DNA from: Methylobacterium sp. AMS5
GTDB taxonomy: Bacteria; Pseudomonadota; Alphaproteobacteria; Rhizobiales; Beijerinckiaceae
Direction of reading: 5' to 3'
Assembly: GCF_001542815.1 (NCBI RefSeq)
Contig: NZ_CP006993.1
Span: 1-64,000 of the forward strand
DNA: 64,000 nucleotides
Part shown: piece after piece, positions 10,216 through 61,521 of the stretch
How the letters are laid out: the number at the start of each line of letters is the position of its first letter
Numbering within the stretch: the first letter of the stretch is position 1
Notes under the pieces: model-generated
Seen by the model: only the letters and a program-made list of their open reading frames with translations
Database searches by the model: none
Told to the model about the DNA's origin: nothing
Translations under genes and position numbers: made by a program

Positions 10216-11009
10216 CACCTAGCCTTGAGAAAGCGCTCGACGCCCTCCCGAGCCCCGGCGTCGTTATCGTTGACGCTCTCGTTATAGCGCTCTGCGCTCG
10301 GCGTTTCGTTCAGACGAGCGGTCCAACCTTTGTGATGGGACCGCTTGCCCTTCGAGACCGCGACCATGTGGCCCTGCTGGAGCCCATGATCGGCGCAGAA
10401 AGCCCGCAAGTTCGTCACAGAGCGCTCCAGGCCGTCCGGATCGGTCACGAGGTAGGTCTTTGCCGTCCGCGCGCCGATTGCCGTCTGGTGAGCGTCTGTG
10501 CGAGCCAGCGCGCCCTTCCTGATCCGCTCGATGACCTCTGCCGGCCGCGAACGCCCTACCAGAGCCTCGCGACGCCGCTGCTTCTCCTCGTCGGTCTGCT
10601 CACGGCCCACGGCAGCGGAGCGCTGCGCGTCGCGACAGGCCTCGGAAGGCACCCTCCCCTTCGCGATCTCCCGCATCTTGGCGCGCGAAGCCTCGGAGTG
10701 CCGGACGCCCAGATTCGAGCGAGCGTCGCGGCGCCGGTTGTAGAGGCCCTTGTGCCAGTAGCGGTCGATCCACTCCTGCTCGACCTCGATCAGGCGATCG
10801 GGATCGGCGAGCTCCAGGATGAAGAAGCCGAAGGCCTCGGGCCCGTGCTTCGTCCATGCTCGCTGGAGATAGGAGTTCTGGTGCGCGCCGCGAGCCAGAT
10901 AGGCTCGATGCACGCTCCAGCGACGAGTGATGTGGACGGCACTGCCAATATAGTGCCGTCCAGATGCAAGATGAATGATGGCGTAAACGCCACTAAGCCG
11001 CTGCGTCAA
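10215..11009 (-). CDS. GIY-YIG homing endonuclease
   Basis: Selfish DNA endonuclease. The GIY-YIG nuclease core occupies residues 6-95: GVYAII then HYIGSA, a catalytic-region arginine in ITRRWSVHR, and EVEQEWIDRY. After it come NUMOD3-type repeats (GVRHSEASRAKMREIAKG) and a helix-turn-helix-like DNA-recognition end, as in SegA-type enzymes. It overlaps the 3' end of phoH by 17 bases and the next start by 1-3 bases, which suggests insertion between phoH and the 9508 gene without destroying either. Confidence 0.88.
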   Translation of the reverse strand: MTQRLSGVYAIIHLASGRHYIGSAVHITRRWSVHRAYLARGAHQNSYLQRAWTKHGPEAFGFFILELADPDRLIEVEQEWIDRYWHKGLYNRRRDARSNLGVRHSEASRAKMREIAKGRVPSEACRDAQRSAAVGREQTDEEKQRRREALVGRSRPAEVIERIRKGALARTDAHQTAIGARTAKTYLVTDPDGLERSVTNLRAFCADHGLQQGHMVAVSKGKRSHHKGWTARLNETPSAERYNESVNDNDAGAREGVERFLKAR

Positions 11010-11841
11010 CCTTCAGGACCCTCATGAGGCCCGAATCGTAGCTCGCCTGATCGTCGTTGTCGGCAGAAATTCCTTCGTCCTCGGGAGTTTCATACGCGGA
11101 TACGACCATCTGAGCGAAGCCCGAGCGCACGATGTCCTCGCGCTTGAACCGCATCACGCCGACGCCGGGCTTGCCGGAGAGCTTGTCGAGGGCATCCGCG
11201 AGACCCGAGGGGCCGGGAATGTCCTTCTGCCGCAGGTCGCCGTTGACGACGACGCGGCAGTCCTGGCCGATGCGGGTCAGGAACAGCTTCATCTGGCCGG
11301 GCGTGGTGTTCTGCGCCTCGTCGAGCAGCACGTCGGCATGCTTGAAGGTCGAACCGCGCAGCAGCGCCAGCGGCCGGGCCTCGATCGTGCCGTTCTTGAT
11401 GAGATACTCGACGTGACCCTTGCCCAGGACGTCCTCGAACGCCTCGCGCACGGGCCGGAAGTAGGGCTCGAACTTCTCGTCCAGCTCGCCCGGCAGAAAG
11501 CCGAGGGATTCGCCGGCCTCGACCGCGGGGCGGGTGATGATAACCTGCTGGATCTCACCGTCGCGCAGGCGCTCGGCCATGCGGGCGGCAGCGAACCAGG
11601 TCTTGCCCGTTCCTGCGGGCCCCAGGGCGATCGTGAGCGTGTTCTCGTGCATCAGAGCGTCGAACTCCCGCTGCGCAGCGTTCAGGGGCGCTACGGGCGT
11701 CTGACGGGGCTTCTGGGGCACACGGGGACGCTGCGTTTCGAGCTCCTGGGTGAGACGAAGCAGTGACCCGTGGTTCCCGCGCTTGGCGTGCTTCTGCTGG
11801 CGACGGGCGTTACGGGCGATGGCCTTCTCGGCGCTGGTCAT
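10993..11841 (-). CDS. phoH: PhoH-family ATPase
   Basis: P-loop ATPase of the PhoH family, common in phages, with proposed roles in RNA metabolism or phosphate stress. Walker A is ALGPAGTGKTW (GKT 79-81), followed by the family signatures TRPAVEAGESLGFLPGE and Walker B VLLDEAQNTT. I start at ATG 11841 (282 residues), after a leader with palindrome copy 11871-11894; the upstream in-frame ATG runs through that palindrome. The 3' end is overlapped by the homing endonuclease gene. Confidence 0.9.
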   Translation of the reverse strand: MTSAEKAIARNARRQQKHAKRGNHGSLLRLTQELETQRPRVPQKPRQTPVAPLNAAQREFDALMHENTLTIALGPAGTGKTWFAAARMAERLRDGEIQQVIITRPAVEAGESLGFLPGELDEKFEPYFRPVREAFEDVLGKGHVEYLIKNGTIEARPLALLRGSTFKHADVLLDEAQNTTPGQMKLFLTRIGQDCRVVVNGDLRQKDIPGPSGLADALDKLSGKPGVGVMRFKREDIVRSGFAQMVVSAYETPEDEGISADNDDQASYDSGLMRVLKVDAAA

Positions 11842-11870
11842 GATGGTCCTCGCTCTGGGGACGTGTTGTG

Positions 11871-11894
11871 CAAAGTCAGTAAGCACTGACTGAC
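11871..11894. promoter_or_regulatory. Palindrome variant with longer spacer
   Basis: GTCAGTAAGCACTGACTGAC: arms as in the dispersed palindrome but eight rather than four central bases. About 30 bases upstream of the phoH start. Confidence 0.5.
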
Positions 11895-44191: not shown

Positions 44192-45457
44192 TCACAGCGA
44201 AACGCCGAGGATCTTGATCTGACGCACCGGGAATTCGAGATCGAGGCAGTAGCCCAGCGCGTCGGCCGGGTGCTCGACGCCCGCGCTCTTGTCCACGTCG
44301 CGCGAGCCCGGCTTGTAGATCGTCTGCTCGAAGGCGTTGATGACGTGCTTGCAGTTCCGGTCCACCTTGAGCCGGATCGTGCCGTCGGCCGCCTTGAGCA
44401 TCCGATTGACCGAGTTCACGCGGTCGGCCACCTTCGGGTGCTTCTTGCGATACTTGAGATTCTTGAACTCGGCGTCGCGCAGGATGTCGAGGTCGCTCTC
44501 GCCGCGGCCGTGGCCGCGCTGGGCGCCGGCCGGGTCCGGGTAGAGAATGATCCGCTTCTTGTGCTTGAAGAACTTGCGGTCGAGCTCCTGCGCGACCTCT
44601 TCGGTCGAGGAACCGGGCAGGATGATCTCGCCCACGATCCAGACCTCGCCGTTGTCCTGCAGCTGCATGATGACCGACGACATCGGGTCGATGTTGAAGT
44701 CCTGCCCGATCCAGATCGGCAGCTGCGGGTTGAAGGCGTAGTCGCCGACGTGGATGTTGCGGTCGAACGCATGGTAGACGCGGCCGCTCATCGTCTCGAA
44801 GCTCGCCTCGAACTCCTGACGGAACGACTTGTCGTCCATGTTCTGGCGCGCGTTCTCGATCTCCTCCAGCGGGATGAACGGCGACGTGATGGTCGGGAAC
44901 TGCCAGGACTTGTGCGTGTTGCGGCGCAGCTTGCCCTTCGCGTCGCGATACGTGTCGCCGCGCTGGCCCTTCATGTAGACGTCGTAGAGCCAGTTGTAGG
45001 CCTTGGGCGTCCCGATGATGATGGCGCTGCCGCGGGTCGAGGCGAGCGTCGGCATCAGGACCTTGAACCAGGTGTCCGGCTCGATGTCCTGGGCCTCGTC
45101 GACCACGACCAGGTGCAGCGCGACGCCGCGCAGGCTGTCCGGCTTGTCCGCGCCCTTGCACTCGATCAGCGAGCCGTTGCGCAGCCGGATCGCCATCCGG
45201 GTCTCGTTGATCCGCTTGACCCACTTGGCCGGGATCGAATCCTTTAGCTCGTCCCACAGGATCGAGCGCGCCATCCCGTAGGTGGGCGCGACATACCAGA
45301 CCTTCTGCTTGGACTTGGCCGCGGCAGCGGTGACGATCGAGATCCGCGCGAACTGGGTCTTGCCCCAGCGCCGGCCGGCAACGACCACCTTGACCCGGCG
45401 CGGATCGTTGAAGACCGTCGCCTGGCCGTGGTGGAGCTTATACTCAAGCGTCGCCAT
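44192..45457 (-). CDS. terL: Terminase large subunit
   Basis: DNA-packaging motor, 421 residues. Walker A GRRWGKT (28-34), Walker B LVVVDEAQ (D120, E121), coupling motif IIIGTPK, then an RNase-H-like nuclease with IWIGQDFNIDP, a second acidic site YPDPAG and a late EHPADALGY. Overlaps TerS by a few bases. Confidence 0.95.
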   Translation of the reverse strand: MATLEYKLHHGQATVFNDPRRVKVVVAGRRWGKTQFARISIVTAAAAKSKQKVWYVAPTYGMARSILWDELKDSIPAKWVKRINETRMAIRLRNGSLIECKGADKPDSLRGVALHLVVVDEAQDIEPDTWFKVLMPTLASTRGSAIIIGTPKAYNWLYDVYMKGQRGDTYRDAKGKLRRNTHKSWQFPTITSPFIPLEEIENARQNMDDKSFRQEFEASFETMSGRVYHAFDRNIHVGDYAFNPQLPIWIGQDFNIDPMSSVIMQLQDNGEVWIVGEIILPGSSTEEVAQELDRKFFKHKKRIILYPDPAGAQRGHGRGESDLDILRDAEFKNLKYRKKHPKVADRVNSVNRMLKAADGTIRLKVDRNCKHVINAFEQTIYKPGSRDVDKSAGVEHPADALGYCLDLEFPVRQIKILGVSL

Positions 45458-47924: not shown

Positions 47925-48385
47925 GACACGATCTCCCAGTCCTGGGCCAGCAGATCGGACTGCGAGCACAGCCACGGCACCCGGTTCTTACAGGCCGTGA
48001 ACATGAACACGTAGGGAAGGCTCATCTTCGAGTGAGCGTCCGGCACCTGAAGCTCCAGATACATACCCTTGCCGTTCCAGCCGGCGCGGGCCACGCGCTT
48101 GCCGGCCTGCATCGCCTCGACGACCTCGCCGATCCGCAGACCCGTGGTCCGGGGCGCCTCGGCAGCCGGCGTGGTCAGGATCTTGGCCGCGGTGATGTTG
48201 AGGCGATCGGGCGCGCCGCCGAAGGTGATGTTGCCGATCACCAGATCGCCGTTCGTCTTGGCCTGGATGTCGACCTGCGAGCGCGGCTGTGAGGTCACGA
48301 CGAGGCCCTCGGGCTCCCGGCTCGTGATGGTCACATCGTGATCGCCGATGACGATCTTGGTGTGAATGTCGGATTCGGTGCTCAT
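47921..48385 (-). CDS. DUF2829/Tad2-domain protein (anti-Thoeris?)
   Basis: 154 residues. Residues 82-153 match the DUF2829 family: IGEVVEAMQAGKRVARAGWN, then GKGMYLELQVP, PYVFMFTA and the hallmark PWLCSQSDLLAQDW. DUF2829 proteins include Tad2, a phage protein that binds the cyclic ADP-ribose signal of Thoeris and so blocks that defence. Here the domain follows an 80-residue beta-rich N-terminal part of unknown role (EGLVVTSQPRSQVDIQAKTN). Overlaps both neighbours (ATGA, GTGA). Domain call strong; anti-Thoeris activity inferred from family. Confidence 0.82.
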   Translation of the reverse strand: MSTESDIHTKIVIGDHDVTITSREPEGLVVTSQPRSQVDIQAKTNGDLVIGNITFGGAPDRLNITAAKILTTPAAEAPRTTGLRIGEVVEAMQAGKRVARAGWNGKGMYLELQVPDAHSKMSLPYVFMFTACKNRVPWLCSQSDLLAQDWEIVS

Positions 48386-49023
48386 ACTGCTGCCTTCTCG
48401 ACTTCCACCTTCTCGCGGAAGCGCTTGGTGATGGTGAGGGAGGGACCGAGCTCGTCCTTGAGGTCGGTGTGGGTGGTCGCGACCATCAGCGTCCGGCCGG
48501 CAGCGCGGGCCGCCTTCTGGACGTTGAAGGCGATGACCTTCGCGGTGACGCGATCGAGGACGGCGCCGAACTCGTCGGCGACCCACACATCGGCGTTCGA
48601 GCCGATGATCTTGGCGAGCTTCACCCGGTAGCGCTGACCGTCGGAGAGCTCGAACGGGCGCCGGATGAAGATCCAGGCGTCCGAAATGCCGGCCAGACCC
48701 AGCAGCCGCAGCCCCTCGGTCATGGAGCCACCCACCTGCTCGATGACGGGCTCGTCCGTGAGCTCGACCTCGTTGAGATCGGCCACGACCTTGCCGTCGG
48801 CGCGCAGCTTGCCCGTCAGGTCGCGCAGGAGCAGCGACTTGCCGGACCCGGACTGGCCGGTGATGTAGACGACATCGCCCTGGTTCAGCTCGACCAGCAG
48901 GTCGTCGTAGACGACGAAGCGCTTGTCGGAGAGGCCCAGACCGAAGGCCTCGGCGACTTCGAGCACGCGCGGCGTGCGCTCGACCGACGACGAGAAGGCG
49001 CGCGAGATCCGGTAGGTGCTCAT
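48382..49023 (-). CDS. Stand-alone ABC ATPase
   Basis: 213 residues, soluble. Walker A GQSGSGKS (56-63), signature LSDGQ (126-130), Walker B VWVADEF (D150, E151) and an H-loop ATTHTD. No membrane partner is encoded nearby, so it is not a transporter. With ParB-type and GNAT neighbours it probably works on DNA, as in phage loci proposed for DNA modification (inference). Confidence 0.85.
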   Translation of the reverse strand: MSTYRISRAFSSSVERTPRVLEVAEAFGLGLSDKRFVVYDDLLVELNQGDVVYITGQSGSGKSLLLRDLTGKLRADGKVVADLNEVELTDEPVIEQVGGSMTEGLRLLGLAGISDAWIFIRRPFELSDGQRYRVKLAKIIGSNADVWVADEFGAVLDRVTAKVIAFNVQKAARAAGRTLMVATTHTDLKDELGPSLTITKRFREKVEVEKAAV

Positions 49024-49472: not shown

Positions 49473-49719
49473 GGGAAGTCACCACTGACTGACAGGTGCG
49501 GACAAGCCGATCCTGGCTCGGCAGGCGCTTGATCGACCCGAGATAGAGAGCGTTGGCGAGGTAGCCCCGGCGCGCGCGGTCGCGGGCCGTGAAGTTCCAG
49601 GCGAGCCCGTCGCGGGTGCGCCAGAAGGCGTGGTAGCGCCCGAAGCGGTTGCGCTGGAAGCGCATCCGGGTCCCGCCGCAGACGAGCGCGACGAGGATGC
49701 AGTTGGCCGGGAAGCGCAT
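49465..49719 (-). CDS. Small basic hypothetical protein
   Basis: 84 residues, Arg/Tyr/Phe-rich (FQRNRFGRYHAFWRTRDG), with palindrome-encoded end SVVTSHA. ATG 49719 overlaps the ParB-like stop. Confidence 0.55.
   Translation of the reverse strand: MRFPANCILVALVCGGTRMRFQRNRFGRYHAFWRTRDGLAWNFTARDRARRGYLANALYLGSIKRLPSQDRLVRTCQSVVTSHA
49476..49494. promoter_or_regulatory. Palindrome GAAGTCACCACTGACTGAC
   Basis: Core 49477-49490, inside the end of the 49465 gene and 4 bases before the next ATG. Confidence 0.7.
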
Positions 49720-50393
49720 CAGGCAGCGACCCCGAAGGCGTCGAGGAAGCCCATGAGGGCGTCCGCGCCGGTCTCGCCGGTCTCACCCTCGATCTTGGCG
49801 ATGAAGGCCTTCACGCGCCGGCCCTGCTCGACCGTGAGCTTGCCGAAGCCGAGCGCATCCGCGACCCGCATGGTCGACGTGTCGACGGCCGCGGCCTTCT
49901 TGGTGTTCTCGACCTGCTGCTCCTCGACGGCCTCGGAGATGTCCTCGACGAAGGCGCTCTCGTCGAACTCGGCCGGGTCCTCGGTGAGGAAGCTGAGCTC
50001 CTTGGCCTCGTAGCCGAGCAGGTTGACGTCCACGTCGTCCTCGCCGGCGAGCCAGGTCAGGCTCTCGCGGATCTGGGCGGTGTCGTAGTCCTGGGTGGAC
50101 GCCTTGTTGTCGGCCAGGCGCATCGCCTCGGCCTGGGCGTCGGAGAGACCCTTCACCACGACGGCCGGGACGGACTTGAGGCCCATCTCGATCGCAGCCA
50201 GGCGCCGGCCGTGGCCCGCGATGATCTCGCCGTTCTCGCGCAGGATCAGCGGCTGGGTCCAGACGCCCGCGCCGCGGATGACGCCGACGAGCTTCTTCGT
50301 CGTCTCCGGCGTGTGCTTCTTGGCGTTCTTCGCGTAGGGCTTGAGCTTGCCGATCGGCCAGTGCTCGATGGGCAGGTCAGTCAGCGTCGTCAT
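49719..50393 (-). CDS. ParB/Srx-fold protein 1
   Basis: 224 residues. Residues about 10-100 are the ParB N-terminal fold: IGKLKPYAKNAKKHTPETTK, then GVWTQPLILRENGEIIAGHG and RRLAAIEMGLKSVPAVVVKG (the GHGRR box binds CTP or acts in phage nucleases). Phage ParB-fold proteins near methylases or ABC/GNAT genes are common in modification loci. No HTH spreading domain visible, so a partition role is less likely. Confidence 0.85.
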   Translation of the reverse strand: MTTLTDLPIEHWPIGKLKPYAKNAKKHTPETTKKLVGVIRGAGVWTQPLILRENGEIIAGHGRRLAAIEMGLKSVPAVVVKGLSDAQAEAMRLADNKASTQDYDTAQIRESLTWLAGEDDVDVNLLGYEAKELSFLTEDPAEFDESAFVEDISEAVEEQQVENTKKAAAVDTSTMRVADALGFGKLTVEQGRRVKAFIAKIEGETGETGADALMGFLDAFGVAA

Positions 50394-55233: not shown

Positions 55234-55326
55234 CGTTCCGGGTCCGTTCCCTACCCGTTAACCGGGCCTTAACGTAAGCATGGGCGAATCCGCTTGTCAG
55301 CGACTTCGCGAAACGGAAATCCGCCC
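55234..55326. promoter_or_regulatory. parA leader, possible centromere
   Basis: Contains CCCGTTAACCGGG (near-palindrome) and partly inverted GGGCGAATCCG / CGGAAATCCGCCC before the parA ATG. The usual place for a type Ib centromere and promoter; no clear repeat array seen. Confidence 0.35.
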
Positions 55327-56007
55327 ATGCTCACCATAGCTTGCCTCTCCCAGAAGGGTGGCGTCGGTAAAAGCACCCTCACCCGACTGATCGCCCGCAG
55401 CTACGCGGCTGCCGGCTGGCGCGTGAAGATCGCCGACCTCAACACCAAGCAGAAGACGTCCGTGGACTGGGCCTCGCTCCGGATGGAAGCGAACCTGGAG
55501 CCGTCCGTCTCGGCCGAGCCCTTCGCCAACGTGCGCCAGGCGCTCCTGCAGTCGATGAACTACGACCTCATGGTGTTCGACGGCCGCCCCGATTCCGAGA
55601 CCGCGGGCCGTGACGTCGCCAAGGAGGCAGACCTCATCATCGTGCCGACCTCGGTCGCGCTCGACGACCTCGCCCCGCAGGTGAAGTTCGCCCACGAGCT
55701 GATCTCCAACGGCATCGAGCGCAAGCGCATCCTCTTCGTCATCAACCAGACGGGCGAGAGCCAGGTCGAGGTCAACGACGCGCGCGAGTATGTCCGGGTC
55801 GCCGGCTACGGCGTCTGCGAGACCCACATCTCGGCCAAGCCCAGCTACCGGACCGCGCAGAACACCGGCCGCGCCCTGAACGAGACCACCTTCCCCTCGC
55901 TCAATGAGCGCGCCGACGCCCTGATGCAGGAGGTCGTGGATAAGGTCGCCGAGCTCGATCCCCGCGCCTCCCAGCGTGCCTCCCTGATCGCCAAGGTGCC
56001 CGCATGA
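55327..56007 (+). CDS. parA: ParA-family partition ATPase
   Basis: 226 residues. Deviant Walker A KGGVGKST (10-17), Walker A' LMVFDGRPDSET, and Walker B-type LIIVPTSVALDDL. No N-terminal DNA-binding domain, so it is a small type Ib ParA. Forms a two-gene cassette with the RHH protein downstream, and would segregate the phage-plasmid. Confidence 0.9.
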   Translation: MLTIACLSQKGGVGKSTLTRLIARSYAAAGWRVKIADLNTKQKTSVDWASLRMEANLEPSVSAEPFANVRQALLQSMNYDLMVFDGRPDSETAGRDVAKEADLIIVPTSVALDDLAPQVKFAHELISNGIERKRILFVINQTGESQVEVNDAREYVRVAGYGVCETHISAKPSYRTAQNTGRALNETTFPSLNERADALMQEVVDKVAELDPRASQRASLIAKVPA

Positions 56008-56432
56008 GCCGTCTGAAGATCGCCCCGCCTCCCATGCCGGCCGAGCCGGCGCCCGAAGTCGTTCCAGAGCCCGTAGAGGCGCCCTCCCCTGCTCCGGCTC
56101 CCAAGGTCGACGCGCGTCCCTCGCGGCTGTCTGCGGCCCCGCCCAAGCTCGCGCAGGCCCCGATCAACCTGCACCTGCCCAGCGAAGGCTTCGTCGACCT
56201 CAATTTCAAGGTCGAGCCCGAGCTGCGCCAGCGCTTCAAGCTCGAAGCCGTCCGCCGCGGCATGTCGAACAAGGAGCTGCTCGAAGCCTGCTTCACCGTC
56301 TACCTGGAGACGTTCCCCTCGGACGAGCCCATGCCGACCATCAAGCGTCCGACAGCAGAGACGCTCGCCCGGCGTCGGGAGAAGCGGCTGGAGCGCGAGA
56401 AGCGTCTCGAACGCATCCGGTCGCGCCAATGA
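56004..56432 (+). CDS. RHH partition partner (ParG-like)
   Basis: 142 residues. Flexible Pro/Ala-rich head (1-55), RHH domain at about 62-100 (strand VDLNFKVEPE, helices LRQRFKLEAVRRG and NKELLEACFTVYLE), then a basic tail. Overlaps parA by ATGA; matches ParA-ParG type Ib systems. Confidence 0.75.
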   Translation: MSRLKIAPPPMPAEPAPEVVPEPVEAPSPAPAPKVDARPSRLSAAPPKLAQAPINLHLPSEGFVDLNFKVEPELRQRFKLEAVRRGMSNKELLEACFTVYLETFPSDEPMPTIKRPTAETLARRREKRLEREKRLERIRSRQ

Positions 56433-56641
56433 GCGCCGGCCCCGAGGAGATCGACCTGCTGGAGCTGGCCCGCGAGCTCATGCGGCAGTTCACGCCCGAG
56501 GAGAGAACCGAAGTGGTCCGCGAAGCGGACCGTCTCGGGATCTCCGAGGAATACGTCGTCCTCGAAGCCATCCTGCAGCTCGATCTGTCCGAGTTCGCGC
56601 ACGGGGAATTGGGGAGTGGGGAGCCTGGGACCCAAGGATGA
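56429..56641 (+). CDS. Small hypothetical protein
   Basis: 70 residues, helical, acidic (EEIDLLELARELMRQFTPEE). Coupled to the RHH gene by ATGA. Unknown. Confidence 0.55.
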   Translation: MSAGPEEIDLLELARELMRQFTPEERTEVVREADRLGISEEYVVLEAILQLDLSEFAHGELGSGEPGTQG

Positions 56642-56734
56642 TCGCCGGGGATCTGGTGCCTCTCCCAAGGACCGGCCGGAGATGCTGGTGGACACCCGAG
56701 GCATAGCCCAGAGCGCGTGAGTGTGGCTCTAGGA

Positions 56735-56820
56735 CATCACTGTGTCTCAAAAACTACAGTGACAAACGTGCAACGTGATGCGCGCGTGCATCAGTGTGTC
56801 ACGCGCGCATCAGTGTGTCA
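56735..56820. repeat. Short direct repeats GCATCAGTGTGTCA
   Basis: Two perfect copies (56788-56801, 56807-56820), 19 bases apart with CGCGCG between, and a degenerate third (ATCACTGTGTC, about 56736). They start the GG/CC-free block after the par operon. Confidence 0.6.
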
Positions 56821-57198
56821 TGCTTGCTCGTCAAGCACTAATTCGACGCAATGCATAAGAAAACGCTTGAAGTCTGCGAAGTTGTCGAAGCGAAAACATT
56901 GCTTCTGCAATGTAATGTTTTCGTCAAAGTTAAGATCAGAGCATGCATAATGCGCATCGTTAAGCGTGCGCACAACGACGTGATGAAAGCTGTCGTGCTT
57001 GCGTTCGATGCGCACAGCGTCGATGTAGTGAAACTGCATCACAAGCATTTCAACGCGCTCGCTGTAAGCGTCAAAATCGTCGCGCGCGCTCATGTCAGTG
57101 CGATAGTCTGCGAAGCTGTCGAACGCGCTCATCAGCGCTTGCTCTTGCGCGAGCTTGCGTGTCTCAGCGTTCATCTCAGCGATATCTTGAAGCGTCAT
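56818..57198 (-). CDS. GG/CC-free gene, unknown protein A
   Basis: 126 residues with no Gly, Pro or Trp. Begins MTLQDIAEMNAETRKLAQEQ and is otherwise His/Phe/Asp-rich (DSFHHVVVRTLNDAHYACSD). The ribosome binding site is AGAGAG, without GG. ATG 57198 is preferred; the longer frame starts at the promoter. No family recognised. Confidence 0.6.
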   Translation of the reverse strand: MTLQDIAEMNAETRKLAQEQALMSAFDSFADYRTDMSARDDFDAYSERVEMLVMQFHYIDAVRIERKHDSFHHVVVRTLNDAHYACSDLNFDENITLQKQCFRFDNFADFKRFLMHCVELVLDEQA

Positions 57199-57253
57199 GA
57201 CGAAAACTCTCTGTGTTGCTGACAAATGCTTGTCGCATGCGTTCGCATTGCAA

Positions 57254-57274
57254 GTCAATCACTGCTGACTGACT
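57254..57274. promoter_or_regulatory. Palindrome GTCAATCACTGCTGACTGAC
   Basis: Core 57257-57270. On the minus strand it yields TTGACT (-35-like), next to GTTCGCATTG (57241). It also encodes the end VSQQ of the 57259 gene. Confidence 0.6.
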
Positions 57275-57450
57275 TTTTCGAGCTTTTTGCGCGCGCGATG
57301 CTTCGCGACACGCAAGCGCGCATCTTCGTCTCTGTGCGACGCGACAAGCGCTAGATAAGCTTCGCGTGCGCGTTGCTTCTCTGTGCGAAGCTCGCTCAGA
57401 CGCGCTTCGATTGACGCGATTTCAGCGCGCAGAGCGTCAGACTTGCACAT
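57259..57450 (-). CDS. GG/CC-free gene, small coiled-coil protein
   Basis: 63 residues, no Gly/Pro/Trp; highly charged coiled coil (SIEARLSELRTEKQRAREAY). Preceded by GAGAAG. Unknown role. Confidence 0.6.
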   Translation of the reverse strand: MCKSDALRAEIASIEARLSELRTEKQRAREAYLALVASHRDEDARLRVAKHRARKKLEKVSQQ

Positions 57451-57552
57451 AGCGTTTGCTTCTCATGAGAGCGTCGCACAGCGCGTTCGCGCGCTCTGAG
57501 CTAGTGAGAGCGCTAGAGACGCGCGAAGCGTCTCTAGCGTGCGTCTGAGCGC

Positions 57553-58167
57553 TTAGAGCGCGACGTTCAGCGCTTTCGCGAGACGCTTCGTCGTCGTCGC
57601 GCTCAGATTGAGCTTGTAAGCGACTTTGTTCATGTCGTCGCGCGTCTCTGTCAGCACGTCGAACATTTGCAGCGCATTGATGCTAGAGCTTGACTGAGTG
57701 TCAGCAGTGCTTGCAGCGATGCTGCGAGCGTAGCGCGAAATCAGTTGCTCTTTCGTCGCGTCGCACTTGAGCGCGTCGCACAGCGACGCTTGAGCGTCAG
57801 CGTGCGTCATGCTCTTGTCAGCTTTCGTCAGATTGAGAGCAGTCAAGAAAACGTGCTTGCTGTAGACGTTCAGCGCTTCAGCTTTGACAGCAGCGCGCGC
57901 GACGTTGAACACTTTCTCAGCGCTGTAGACGTTGAAACGCTTGTTGCGACGCTCTTGACGATTGATGAAGTCAGCAGCGACGTTCGCAGTGTGCATGACT
58001 TCGCAAACGACGTCTGACGCGAAGTCAGCGCGAAGCGACTTGAACGTCTTGAAAATGTTTTCGTTAGCGTTGTTCTCGCGCTCATAAGCTTCGCGAGCGT
58101 CGAAAGCAGAAGTGAGAGCGAGCTTGTAAGCAGTGACAGCTTCGTTCTTCGCGACGTTGTTGCTCAT
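57553..58167 (-). CDS. GG/CC-free gene, unknown protein B
   Basis: 204 residues, no Gly/Pro/Trp. ATG 58167 has AGAGAG upstream. Residues about 75-180 align by eye with the normal-composition protein at 59424-60332: INRQERRNKRFNVYSAEKVF versus VNRTQHDGSRYNVYAIDKVV, then ADTQSSSSINALQMFDVL versus APTQASSTMQALETLGV. The end KVAYKLNLSATTTKRLAKAL may be a helix-turn-helix. Function unknown. Confidence 0.65.
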   Translation of the reverse strand: MSNNVAKNEAVTAYKLALTSAFDAREAYERENNANENIFKTFKSLRADFASDVVCEVMHTANVAADFINRQERRNKRFNVYSAEKVFNVARAAVKAEALNVYSKHVFLTALNLTKADKSMTHADAQASLCDALKCDATKEQLISRYARSIAASTADTQSSSSINALQMFDVLTETRDDMNKVAYKLNLSATTTKRLAKALNVAL

Positions 58168-58228
58168 GTCTGTGTCTCTCTGTGTTTGTGTGCTGACAAG
58201 AGACAATTTAGTCAGTTCGCATTGAGAG

Positions 58229-58248
58229 TCAATCAGCACTGAGTGACT
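58229..58248. promoter_or_regulatory. Degenerate palindrome with promoter
   Basis: AATCAGCACTGAGT (58231-58244). Minus strand TTGACT then 16 bases then TAAATT, 40 bases from the ATG region, with GTTCGCATTG at 58215. Confidence 0.55.
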
Positions 58249-58442
58249 TTTTGCAGAAAATAGGAATTTTCTTCTGAGACGCATTCTTGCTCTTGACAGT
58301 AGCAAGCGAGCAACACGAGCGTGTGCGCAATCTACATGCGCACAATTCAATGATGCACGATGTATTGCGCACGATTTAAGAGCGCTTGATCGAGTGATGC
58401 GCGAGCGATCGAGCCCGCGCCGCGCCATGGGTCTCTACCGAA

Positions 58443-58478
58443 GCCCGCCCCAAGCCGTTCCTAATTTCCGGAACCGGA
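58443..58478. repeat. 36-bp spacer element, copy A
   Basis: Begins GCCCGCCCCAAGCCGTTCCT; same as copies at 59315 and 60713. Confidence 0.75.
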
Positions 58479-58727
58479 TGGGTCAACGGCGTCCGCCCAT
58501 GGCAGCCCGATCCCTCCCATGGCACTCCATGGGGCACCAATGCGAAAATATCGTCTCAGGAGGCCCGTGGAAGCCCGCGGCAGGCTCCGGAGCTGTCCAC
58601 GGTGCTCCGGACCCTCCCATGGGGCTCCTGCGCGCCCCTGTGCGATCCCATGGGCTGATCGAGCGCAACGATATGGGGCGCCCCTCGCGAGACGCCCCTC
58701 TGTGTGTCGCGCGTGCTGCGCTACCCC

Positions 58728-59048
58728 TTACGCGAACGCTTCCTCGCGCAGCTCCAGTGCTTCGGCGCGCTCGCGGGCCTTGCGGTCGATCATGCGCTTG
58801 CGCTCGGTGCGGCGTCGCGCGATCTCACGCTCCGCATCCTCGACGTAGAAGCTGTCGAGCTCTCCCTCGACGAACTCACGGTAGGGCACGCCCAGGGCCC
58901 GAGCGACACGCATTTCCATTTTCTCCTCTTGGTCGATGATCTTGCTGAGATGCTGCTTCTGGACGTTCGGAGCAGCGGCGAGGGCGGCATTCGTGAACTC
59001 GATCGCGTCGGCGAGGGCGTTGACGACAGAAGAAACGAGATGGCGCAT
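58728..59048 (-). CDS. Small helical hypothetical protein
   Basis: 106 residues from ATG 59048. Helical; VQKQHLSKIIDQEEKMEMRV then a basic coiled-coil end (AEREIARRRTERKRMIDRKA). Normal GC composition. Leader repeats GTGAAGCGCTGCGCTTCG found also before the 60332 gene. Confidence 0.6.
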   Translation of the reverse strand: MRHLVSSVVNALADAIEFTNAALAAAPNVQKQHLSKIIDQEEKMEMRVARALGVPYREFVEGELDSFYVEDAEREIARRRTERKRMIDRKARERAEALELREEAFA

Positions 59049-59423
59049 TGGTTGATCTCTTGTCTTGTGAAGCGCTGCGCTTCGTTGCTGACAAGAATGA
59101 CTATGCACTACGAAATGTATGGATAGAACTGGTGCGTTGTGGTGCAGTATGGGGCGACATGGATATTAGGATACGTCTCCGGCACGGGACGCGGCCCCAC
59201 CCCACGGCCTCCCATGGGACCCCGCGGCAGGCCGTGGATCACCGGACCGTGCCCATGGGAAGCCGAGGAAAGCCGGACCGTGGAGGACCGTGGCCTGCCA
59301 TGGACCATACCAGGGCCCGCCCCTAGCCGTTCCTAATTCCCAGAACCGGAAGCGCGGGCTCCCATGGGGCGGACCGAGGCAAGAGAAAGGGGCGCACAGG
59401 GCGCCCCAGTCTCGTCTCGGGTC
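59049..59423. other. CCATGG-rich spacer with leader repeat
   Basis: Contains GTGAAGCGCTGCGCTTCG-type leader (59069-59094), four CCATGG sites (59212, 59253, 59298, 59362) and 36-bp element copy B. No gene seen. Confidence 0.55.
59315..59350. repeat. 36-bp spacer element, copy B
   Basis: Begins GCCCGCCCCTAGCCGTTCCT; differs from copy A at only a few positions. Confidence 0.75.
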
Positions 59424-60332
59424 TTAGGCGGCCTTCTGGATCTTCTCCTTGAGCGCCGCGGTGATCGGGGCGTCGGTCAGGGTGAAGGTGGGGTTGCGGC
59501 TCGATCCCTCGCGCTTGACAACCCCGAGGGTCTCCAGGGCCTGCATGGTCGAGGACGCTTGGGTCGGCGCGGTGCTCGCGGAGACCGTGTGGCGCGTCAG
59601 GTGCTTCCGGACCGCGATCTCGACCCCATACTTGTCCGAGGCGCACGCCTTGGCGAGTTCGAGGCTGAAGGCGTGCCCCGCGGCTTGCAGCGCGAAGATC
59701 GACTTGAGGCAGGCGCGGTTGATGGCGTTCTTGACCTCACCCGCGTCGCTGCCGAGGGCGCGCAGGATGTCGACCACTTTGTCGATGGCGTAGACGTTGT
59801 AGCGCGACCCGTCGTGCTGCGTGCGGTTCACGAAGGCGGTGTCGACAGCGGCTGCGATCAGCACGCGGGCCGGAGCCTTGGAGACGCCCATGCCCTCCCG
59901 CGCCTTCTTCAGGGTGCGCTGGATGTTGTGGCCGTCGCCTTTCTTCTGGAGCTCGAACTGGGCGCGCTCGTCGATCGCGGCGTTGATGGTGCGCTGGGCC
60001 ATCTCGATGTCCGTGTCGTCGAGCAGGTCCATCAGCTCCCGGAAGCTCGGGCCGGTCGGGGTAGCGGGCGCTTGGAGCTCGTCGCGCATCTCCTCGGCAG
60101 CGATCTCCTGAGCCACGAGATCGAGGACCGCATCGGACGCCTCGGCCTCTTGGACCGGCAGGTCTGCGAAGGTCTCTTCGAGGCTCAGTTGGATCGCGGC
60201 GAGGCGCTCGCTCTCGGCAGCGGCGTCGCGGGTGGCGATCATGGCGTCGTGCTGGAGTTCTCCGAAGTTGACGTTGATCTTCGGGGCGTCGTTCTTGAAG
60301 GACTTGCGGGTGCGAGCGGTCTTAGCGGTCAT
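59424..60332 (-). CDS. Normal-composition paralogue of protein B
   Basis: 302 residues. Middle to C-terminal part (about 150-270) aligns with protein B at 57553; the first 140 residues are extra, acidic and helical. The end HTVSASTAPTQASSTMQALE then TLGVVKREGSSRNPTFTL looks like a winged-helix. Contains ordinary numbers of Gly and Pro. Function unknown; a DNA-binding regulator is possible. Confidence 0.65.
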   Translation of the reverse strand: MTAKTARTRKSFKNDAPKINVNFGELQHDAMIATRDAAAESERLAAIQLSLEETFADLPVQEAEASDAVLDLVAQEIAAEEMRDELQAPATPTGPSFRELMDLLDDTDIEMAQRTINAAIDERAQFELQKKGDGHNIQRTLKKAREGMGVSKAPARVLIAAAVDTAFVNRTQHDGSRYNVYAIDKVVDILRALGSDAGEVKNAINRACLKSIFALQAAGHAFSLELAKACASDKYGVEIAVRKHLTRHTVSASTAPTQASSTMQALETLGVVKREGSSRNPTFTLTDAPITAALKEKIQKAA

Positions 60333-60582
60333 CTGTCTGTCTTTCGTCTGTGAAGCGCTGCGCTTCGTTGCTGACGAAGACTAGAAACGATATTTAGGCT
60401 AGGGATGCTACTGGCACGTTATGGAAGCTCTAAGCTTCTGGATACACGCTCGCGTGCTCTATATACGTGAGAGCCGATCTCCGGGCGCGCCATGGGAGGC
60501 CGAGGAGCCCCTTGGGTCGCCGGTGCCTGCCATGAAATCCCATGGGAGCCCGTGGGTCGCCGGACGCTTGGAAATCCAAGAG

Positions 60583-60662
60583 CTCCAAGTCCGCGTTCCT
60601 GTAAATAGGTATATACAGGTAGATAGTAGGTAATAGGTTTTTACAGGAACGCGGACTTGGAG
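60583..60662. repeat. Long inverted repeat with AT-rich loop, copy 3
   Basis: Perfect 23-bp arms: CTCCAAGTCCGCGTTCCTGT (60583 on) and its complement ending GGACTTGGAG (60662), around a 34-base AT-rich loop. Confidence 0.9.
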
Positions 60663-60712
60663 ATTTCCATGGGATCTCCGGCGACCCGAGGCGTTCCGTG
60701 GATCGTTCCAGG

Positions 60713-60748
60713 GCCCGCCCCTGGCCGTTCCTAAATTCCGGATCAGGA
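60713..60748. repeat. 36-bp spacer element, copy C
   Basis: Begins GCCCGCCCCTGGCCGTTCCT; slightly more diverged at the 3' end. Confidence 0.7.
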
Positions 60749-61134
60749 AGACAGACCGCTGCCGGTGCCCCTCAAGCGGTCCGGACGAGACCTCGGGGCA
60801 CCGGTCAGCAGCGTCAGCAACAAGCAGGCACAGAGAGAGCCCAGAGGCAGCTGCGCGTCCGGCGCGCTGCGCTTGCAGTGATAGAGATACAGCAGCGATC
60901 GTGGCGAGGCTACCGGATGCGTGTGGGCGTCCAAGGTGTTCGGGGATCGGTGGACGTAGAGGGAAACGGGCGCCGCGCGGCCGTGTCTATCTGATCCCTC
61001 TCCCAGCTATTCCCCACTCCCCGGCTCTCTATGGGCTCACACACGCTGGCGTCTCTCTAGGGGCTGTCTCTCCCCTCCCCTACGCGCTCCCCACAGACGC
61101 TCTCTCGCTCGTGTCTCTCTGATGCTGATGCGCT

Positions 61135-61380
61135 CTATTCGTTGGATGCGTCGCTCGCTTCGCTCAGAGCATCACACAGCGCGTTTCGTTCGTTCTGTGT
61201 CTCTCTGACGCTCTCACATGCTTCCCGACGCTCTATGAGCTTCTCATGCGATTTGCCCCTAAGACGCTCTCGATCGGGTCCATGTCTCTCTAGAGCTGAT
61301 TGATGGTTTTGGGCTGCGAAATCGGGCTGCTCGGGCTCATGTCCCCTGATGAGACATTTTCCGCAAAATCGCGTTCGCAT
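61135..61380 (-). CDS. Doubtful small ORF
   Basis: Possible 81-residue product with CGKC near the start and a charged end (RETQNERNALCDALSEASDA). No ribosome binding site; composition is partly GG/CC-poor, so it may be a remnant of the GG/CC-free gene type. Confidence 0.25.
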   Translation of the reverse strand: MRTRFCGKCLIRGHEPEQPDFAAQNHQSALERHGPDRERLRGKSHEKLIERREACESVRETQNERNALCDALSEASDASNE

Positions 61381-61443
61381 TGGATTTTGATGGGACATCC
61401 ATAGGACATCCAGGTGACATCCATGGGACATCGGTGAGACATT
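61373..61443. repeat. 11-bp iteron cluster 1
   Basis: GTTCGCATTG at 61373, then GACATC at 61394, 61405, 61416, 61427 and GACATT at 61438: five units at exactly 11-bp spacing. Confidence 0.85.
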
Positions 61444-61461
61444 CGCGGCCCTCGCCCGATA

Positions 61462-61521
61462 GTTCGCATTGAGGTTCGAGGGGACATGCAGGTGACGTCC
61501 ATGGGACATCCATGAGACAGG
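61462..61521. repeat. 11-bp iteron cluster 2
   Basis: GTTCGCATTG at 61462, then GACATG/GACGTC/GACATC/GACAGG at 61483, 61494, 61505 and 61516. Same 21-base offset from GTTCGCATTG as in cluster 1. Confidence 0.8.

Follow-up and report, generated by a model that had tools for sequence, protein, structure and literature searches.

A small operon kept nearly free of GG and CC dinucleotides near a directional site in SSU5/T5-like phages and phage-plasmids

The DNA analyzed here (the window) comprises positions 1-64000 of the 117,697-base contig C2 (NZ_CP006993.1), a separate replicon in a 5.6 Mb genome of four contigs, which is an SSU5/T5-like phage-plasmid of a Methylobacterium-type host. A small operon on its minus strand consists of gene A (57553-58167, 204 residues), gene B (57259-57450, 63 residues), and gene C (56818-57198, 126 residues), and all three products lack Gly, Pro, and Trp. 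By eye, a candidate promoter (TTGACT, a spacer of 16 nucleotides (nt), and TAAATT) was found at 58205-58232 on the same strand, and alternating G and C residues were seen to form an inverted repeat (GATGCGCGCGTG / CACGCGCGCATC) 3' of gene C at 56777-56811 on the minus strand; the latter is terminator-like, yet no T run lies directly behind it. The initial annotation of this DNA had claimed that neither GG nor CC occurs from 56734 to 58262, in three genes or in the gaps between them. Our recount of this block (1529 nt, 52.9% GC) indeed gave 0 GG and 0 CC, and the open reading frames (ORFs) of A, B, and C and the intergenic gaps were all free of both. The block is bounded by the GG at 56732 and the GG at 58263; in its upstream extension (58263-58413) the latter is followed by no further GG/CC before the CC at 58414, hence a single GG/CC occurs within 56734-58413.

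The whole window contained 10,649 GG/CC sites, GG reaching 0.75 and CC 0.81 of the number expected from base composition, and the longest gap from one GG/CC to the next elsewhere in it was 80, the adjoining 150-nt stretch aside. The probability of 1529 GG/CC-free nt was calculated to be about 1e-87 with independent bases of the block's composition and about 1e-110 with a Markov chain of the element's own dinucleotides. When all dinucleotide classes were compared, GG/CC was the only one absent over a run more than 2.2 times the expected maximum in this element; among trinucleotides and tetranucleotides within ten blocks, no further near-absent word was found. The GC content drops from 65% to 53% in the block region. 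Since 53.8% is expected from the element's chain once GG/CC is excluded, against the observed 52.9%, the lower GC content is explained by the exclusion of GG/CC and is no sign of foreign DNA, which argues against the earlier idea of an origin in a GG/CC-avoiding genome. We are very sure that the exclusion is a real phenomenon and no artefact.

Blocks of 0.8-2.4 kb were also found at the corresponding place in relatives from Methylobacterium, Faunimonas, Shinella, Pararhizobium, Sinorhizobium, and Rhizobium and in Pseudomonas phages. One block longer than 200 nt was present in each of 14 whole or near-whole elements, namely this element (G000), G061, G063, G067, G069, G070, the Shinella and Pararhizobium elements, RHph_Y2_11, B1VFA, pLM21S1, RHph_X66, RHEph10, and hairong, and the partial contigs G062 and G072 carried a block too. 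Those of B1VFA (850 nt) and pLM21S1 (1333 nt) contained no GG/CC at all. The M. oryzae plasmid lacked a block, as did G064, which is a short contig, and SSU5 (100 of 103 kb scanned); stretches of 130-180 nt occurred in several elements, including the M. oryzae plasmid, and SSU5 had a weak AT-rich stretch of 445 nt carrying 10 GG/CC. Among the elements seen here, the block belongs to the alphaproteobacterial and Nickievirus branches. Within this SSU5/T5-like clade, GG and CC are kept out, wholly or almost so, of a single small operon close to a conserved directional site.

For gene A, or its counterpart in Nickievirus, 19 of 32 copies contained 0 GG/CC and another 11 had 1-30, while two copies, those of the M. 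oryzae plasmid and G064 (one clade), were at the background level with 66-71; some of the 32 copies are close relatives of one another, and that of G063 was counted from a TCC codon, not ATG. Homologues with ordinary GG/CC, which the initial annotation had regarded as evidence against its view, do exist in the M. oryzae clade. The two copies show near-ordinary synonymous codon use, yet together encode only 2 Gly and 1 Pro, and few of either occur in the proteins of the clade. Because the proteins keep the Gly/Pro-poor composition, they look like secondary losses, and we read the few Gly and Pro residues as a trace of past constraint. The copy at locus L187 was intermediate, with 2 GG and 28 CC. 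On the sense strand, the 30 copies not wholly lost had 11 GG and 71 CC, and the two lost copies had 35 and 102, respectively; this hints that GG is more strictly avoided there, although codon supply may explain it, and it was not used for any conclusion. In the block of G061 (L011 4628-7017, 2390 nt), 26 of the 30 GG/CC were in the context ACC/GGT, which is a lineage-specific, context-dependent relaxation.

A protein search with gene A gave 43 proteins, 25 of which were without any Gly, Pro, or Trp; together, their 8746 residues included 23 Gly, 19 Pro, and 1 Trp. The block of the Pseudomonas phages hairong, nickie, Nican01, and ZY21 codes for a different Gly-free family, in which 50 of 57 homologues lack Gly, Pro, and Trp. 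The block protein of hairong resembles A by eye, but it was rejected as a homologue and treated as not detectably related because the hhalign probability was 0.3%, and neither gene A nor its paralogue A' was found in hairong. Accordingly, the constraint is tied to the position and the unit of expression rather than to any single protein. The earlier claim of a constraint on DNA sequence and not on protein is right in that nucleic acid is the level concerned, as proteins without detectable homology, leaders, hairpins, and gaps were all affected. Gene A' (59424-60332, minus strand, 302 residues) is an ordinary, GG/CC-bearing paralogue of A (99.8% in a profile comparison), present in all 12 other block-bearing alphaproteobacterial elements, and its conserved Gly and Pro positions hold other residues in A.

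The density of GG/CC along the unit was pooled over 23 elements selected for a strict block (gene A, or the gene equivalent to it, with no more than 2 GG/CC), a selection that lowers the figure for the gene and leaves that for the leader unbiased. The gene had 5 GG/CC in 13,701 nt (0.04 per 100 nt) and the leader, the first 45 nt upstream, had 1 in 1,035 nt (0.10 per 100 nt). The density then rose to 0.75 per 100 nt at -46 to -80 (6 in 805 nt), 2.75 at -81 to -110 (19 in 690 nt), 7.7 at -111 to -150, 9.2 at -151 to -250, and 14.6 at -251 to -500 (838 in 5,750 nt). Past the stop codon, it was 0.65 per 100 nt at 1-60 (9 in 1,380 nt), 2.7 at 61-120 (37 in 1,380 nt), 4.8 at 121-250, and 13.0 at 251-500 (748 in 5,750 nt). 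The lack of GG/CC is thus tightest in the coding sequence and leader and looser through the promoter region and past the stop codon. By eye, the block of G062 spans approximately from the transcription start to the hairpins behind gene A, with CC pairs within the candidate promoter spacer; GG or CC also occurs within the candidate promoter spacers of G067 and hairong. The DNA between gene A and the site in G062 bears GG/CC, and a 38-residue ORF there, whose first 13 residues are the same as those of gene C, has 2 GG and 10 CC. In our view, these observations are more easily reconciled with a constraint that concerns the transcript, or the making of it, than with one that concerns cutting of the DNA.

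At 56700-56740 (plus strand), the block edge carries a conserved bipartite site, GGCATAGCC-N20-CTAGGACATC, whose second arm is directed into the block. The general form of the site, which is variable and lies at or near one block edge, is GGCATCCCC-N20-CTAAGACTTCG. All 16 elements examined had the second arm CTAAGACTTCG, aimed into the block, at or within 240 nt of one edge: 10 matches were exact, 3 had one mismatch, 2 had two, and this element (CTAGGACATC) matched by pattern. Searches with two mismatches yield 11-42 matches per element anywhere, and the two weakest cases alone mean little. The first arm lies about 20 nt outside the second and is more variable (GGCATCCCC or similar, such as GGCATAGCC, GGTATCATG, and GGCAATAGG); it was present with at most one mismatch in 9 of 11 additional loci. 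A pattern scan of IMG/VR gave 24 sites, of which 12 were directly followed by a strict block (at least 2 of the first three 200-nt windows with at most 2 GG/CC), 6 by a partial or displaced block, and 6 by none. For the 13 new contigs among them (the other 11 were known already), the corresponding counts were 5, 3, and 5. At L193, L206, L208, and L213, the conserved site was present with a weak or missing block, possibly reflecting further losses. The relative polarity of terminase, site, and block was constant in 14 of 14 elements, including W01, where the block is lost, and gene A pointed either way. No such site was found in SSU5 with at most one mismatch (100 of 103 kb), and the first 12 kb of T5 had neither block nor site.

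The block is accompanied by DNA that is dense in GG/CC. In this element, a spacer with CCATGG-type repeats adjoins the block at 58414-58700, and a second dense spacer at 59170-59420 includes the element's densest 200 nt (68 GG/CC from 59179). In each of the 15 elements compared, 2-8 of the 12 densest 200-nt windows lay no more than 5 kb from the block, against an expectation of about 1 (2 for G062, a partial contig); the number was just 2 in G069, the Pararhizobium element, and hairong. The dense windows of this element are repeat-rich spacers. A 65-nt dispersed repeat family (68-100%) was observed in them at 58416-58480, 59288-59352, and 60686-60750, containing CCATGG-like and GCCGTTCCTAA words; at a similar place in G067 and G069, CCACATGG or CCATGTGG words were noticed by eye.

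The element encodes terminase, tail, ParA, and ParB-like proteins, a replication protein (1173-2360), and a ligase; its rIIA and rIIB genes are outside the window. The terminase large subunit (TerL; 44192-45457, minus strand) puts it among the SSU5/T5-like phages, with identities of 80.3% to the M. oryzae plasmid, 69% to the Shinella plasmid, 65.9% to RHEph10, and 58.2% to SSU5. Both a homologous TerL with core genes and maintenance genes on a separate replicon, as expected of an SSU5/T5-like phage-plasmid, were found. The terminase is 58-80% identical to the nearest records, the genomes are 103-122 kb, the gene order near the terminase is in common, and a replication protein occurs together with ParA in the plasmid forms. 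The M. oryzae plasmid has 54 of the 56 core genes of this element. SSU5 and T5, as far as scanned above, differ in having neither the block nor the site. The relative pLM21S1 has been termed a phage-plasmid related to RHEph10, and its authors were unable to distinguish DNA methyltransferase genes in this block-bearing plasmid (PMC5537653). The element is rare in host genomes: among 111 from the genus, 2 had gene A or A', and among 397 from the order, also 2 (the genome of the window being counted in both).

No convincing function was obtained for A, A', B, or C by Pfam, PHROGs, and PDB sequence searches (PDB with A' only); gene B gave Pfam matches below threshold only, and gene C has a longer relative in G061. 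Rfam gave zero matches at the gathering threshold in 55500-61500. The operon of the partition module, with a ParA-type ATPase at 55294-56007 (plus strand), is directed at the conserved site. The gene behind parA (56004-56432) has, by eye, the look of a ribbon-helix-helix partner, and the site lies slightly downstream of it; the site is possibly a centromere in the plasmid forms. An exact 27-nt direct repeat, TGTGAAGCGCTGCGCTTCGTTGCTGAC, itself GG/CC-free, occurs at 59066-59092 and 60349-60375. The genes 58728-59108 and 59424-60332 have it at their start or immediately upstream, and it is perhaps a shared leader or operator.

Tentatively, the explanation that we rank first is an operon that escapes at the RNA or the transcriptional level, while holding it somewhat more probable that the explanation lies elsewhere. 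A GG/CC-dependent activity, acting on RNA or on the elongating RNA polymerase, would disable other transcripts; the messenger RNA of the operon would have to be made intact meanwhile, and selection would remove each GG and CC. The activity would probably be phage-encoded because the trait tracks the phage lineage across host families, and where the ordinary paralogue A' exists, A would be its shutoff-proof copy. Several points weigh against such an escape. Both GG and CC are avoided, so that an agent at the RNA level must see both, whereas an agent acting on duplex DNA explains the symmetry directly. The promoter region, though more tolerant, is also depleted; the blocks of G000 and G069 reach about 150-275 nt upstream of the predicted promoters, and some blocks (G072 and LM21) run about 200 nt beyond the terminator, these transcription starts and terminators being predictions by eye. 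The nearness of the site and the GG/CC-dense surroundings are left unexplained, and no GG/CC-directed agent was identified. Unlikely, though second in rank, is that the site marks a genome end or a start of injection or replication, so that the block enters or is copied first and stays free of GG/CC-specific targets until its products protect the rest; the attacker would then be a GG/CC-specific nuclease, restriction-like or CRISPR-like. A first-entering region kept free of targets had been among the causes suggested initially. The directional site at or near the block edge in 16 of 16 elements, the fixed polarity of terminase, site, and block while the orientation of gene A varies, and the equal avoidance of GG and CC, as expected for a duplex target, are consistent with this, as is the block-bearing relative Nican01, which is given as 'DTR (long)' in a paper whose methods name PhageTerm (PMC11256456). 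The Nican01 record starts at the terminase, and its two ends have no common 30-mer in the stretches compared, records being circular or arbitrarily opened. However, GG/CC is 20-75 times as dense in the promoter region (-46 to -110) as in the gene, and 8-29 times as dense as in the leader, though a cut in that region would be equally harmful, and in G062 the part nearest the site bears GG/CC while gene A is still free. T5 has, by its record annotation, a comparable special terminal region that enters first (the first-step-transfer DNA, with an injection stop signal), but it is without such a block or site, and the Nickievirus psageB1 was grouped by terminase phylogeny with 3' cos phages and its termini escaped detection (PMC8537276).

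Other explanations appear less probable. The dense spacers might be loading arrays for a GG/CC-reading DNA-binding protein that coats or silences the element, with the block kept free to stay transcribable. The excess of dense windows near the block in every element compared speaks for this; on the other hand, a polymerising protein should bear a single GG, yet several blocks have zero over 0.85-1.5 kb, promoters as the natural silencing target are more GG/CC-tolerant than the coding sequence, and no candidate was identified, so we consider it improbable. Still less credence is given to an origin-proximal stretch lacking start sites for a GG/CC-requiring phage primase and thus unprimed on both strands. 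The directional site, the GG/CC-dense DNA around it, and the three-base context tolerance in G061 would suit a primase, but no origin activity is known here and the block limits track the transcription unit better than the distance from the site. A cumulative-skew turning point lies near the site in most elements (not in G067, G069, and G070), but it may stem from convergent gene orientation, as its sign is reversed in hairong, and it was not used as origin evidence. It is very doubtful that mutation, instead of selection, was the cause, in the form of a deaminase-like process changing CC to CT or TC and GG to AG or GA in the region, as the GC drop and the ACC/GGT context in G061, a three-base preference of the deaminase kind, might suggest. 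In this element, CT/AG and TC/GA were not above the chain conditioned on no GG/CC, and CA/TG and AA/TT were somewhat above it. Codon tests in 14 elements (M. oryzae excluded), with the expectation taken from each element's other genes, gave T at 126 of 563 two-fold C/T sites without CC at stake, against 153 expected; for NCN codons T was 99 against 44.2 expected, an excess like that of the control GTN/CTN codons (39 against 17.6). These results indicate that C was not lost to T specifically at CC, as G, T, and A all occupy the forbidden places, and they speak for selection rather than for mutation of C to T. In this element taken alone, T was in excess at NCN codons, but the pooled controls without CC at stake have the same excess, and a deaminase origin was rejected as not supported by the codon tests; the excess of C-to-T products at CC that hypermutation should leave was not found. 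Scarcely credible is that the T4-type rIIA and rIIB genes (at G000:C2:82921-86818, rIIB and rIIA) impose the constraint. Their loss does accompany the loss of the block: among 56 genes, each of which was found in 8 or more of the 9 further elements from alphaproteobacteria with a block, only these two were absent from the block-less M. oryzae plasmid, they were likewise absent from SSU5, and in the 12-element set they were the sole genes present in 12 of 12 yet missing from the M. oryzae plasmid. But a 93-residue ORF (75143-75424), in 10 of 12 elements and also missing from that plasmid, shares this pattern when the set is at least 10 of 12, and the loss is a single event. Moreover, hairong has a block of 1427 nt and no detectable rIIAB (tblastn, best E 0.07), and T2, phiAxp-3, DFL12phi1, CcrRogue, and pMaq22A_3p match rIIB and have no block (the scan covered 160 of 163.8 kb in T2, 220 of 223.7 kb in CcrRogue, and the whole of the other three). 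The correlation was thus broken, the two genes were rejected as the agent, and we regard the association as chance or indirect. At the place corresponding to rIIB/rIIA, the M. oryzae plasmid has a HEPN/Toprim-associated gene (NZ_CP090351:18160-19449). In phage T2 (AP018813.1), the rIIB match at 162904-163284 lies under a feature labelled ribonucleotide reductase beta subunit, and product names in that place may be wrong. Among the genes common to hairong and not found in SSU5 were those for a PhoH ATPase (10993-11886), an ABC-type ATPase (48382-49023), and a ParB_N protein (49719-50393), which are leads only because the M. oryzae plasmid keeps all three.

Short words are missing from some mobile DNA through restriction-site or protospacer adjacent motif (PAM) avoidance in phages and plasmid leading regions. 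Such avoidance, of CRISPR PAMs or restriction sites, had been proposed initially, but it would deplete a word across the exposed genome, and here the depletion is restricted to about 1% of the element, near-normal elsewhere, with one block per element. Furthermore, the exclusion is near-absolute, concerns one operon and both GG and CC, and is tighter in the transcript than in promoter DNA, while the same words are in excess nearby. With MazF-type mRNA interferases, an ACA-less message escapes RNA cutting because a short recognition word is missing. The proposed escape operon would be alike in evading such an activity through an absent short word, and unlike in that two dinucleotides are concerned, the absence is natural and conserved, and no nuclease was identified. 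In T4, Alc shuts off the host by terminating transcription, depending on which bases the DNA contains, and the phage is itself protected genome-wide by modified cytosine. A base-dependent transcription stop that spares the genes needed by the phage would be common to both systems, but one operon here would be spared by sequence alone. The initial annotation knew of no described system with this property, and our literature search on GG/CC avoidance, a weak test as most subscription papers and preprints were unsearchable, turned up none.

Taken together, these findings point to a so far undescribed process acting on GG/CC that these genes must escape. Possibly, though we would rather doubt it than assert it, the phage lineage makes a GG/CC-directed shutoff of expression, on RNA or the elongating polymerase, from which exactly one operon is spared by a GG/CC-stripped transcript at the cost of Gly, Pro, and Trp; this would be a natural genetic sub-alphabet serving as an immunity tag. 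The families such as A are proteins that have long evolved nearly without Gly, Pro, and Trp, with the ordinary paralogue A' for comparison. Two dinucleotides are excluded locally, without exception over as much as 1.5 kb, and no described cause is known to us or was found in the limited search. This exclusion, maintained in alphaproteobacterial and gammaproteobacterial phages and for proteins with no detectable homology to one another, implies that a powerful process that reads sequence, so far undiscovered, is at work in phages of a common kind.

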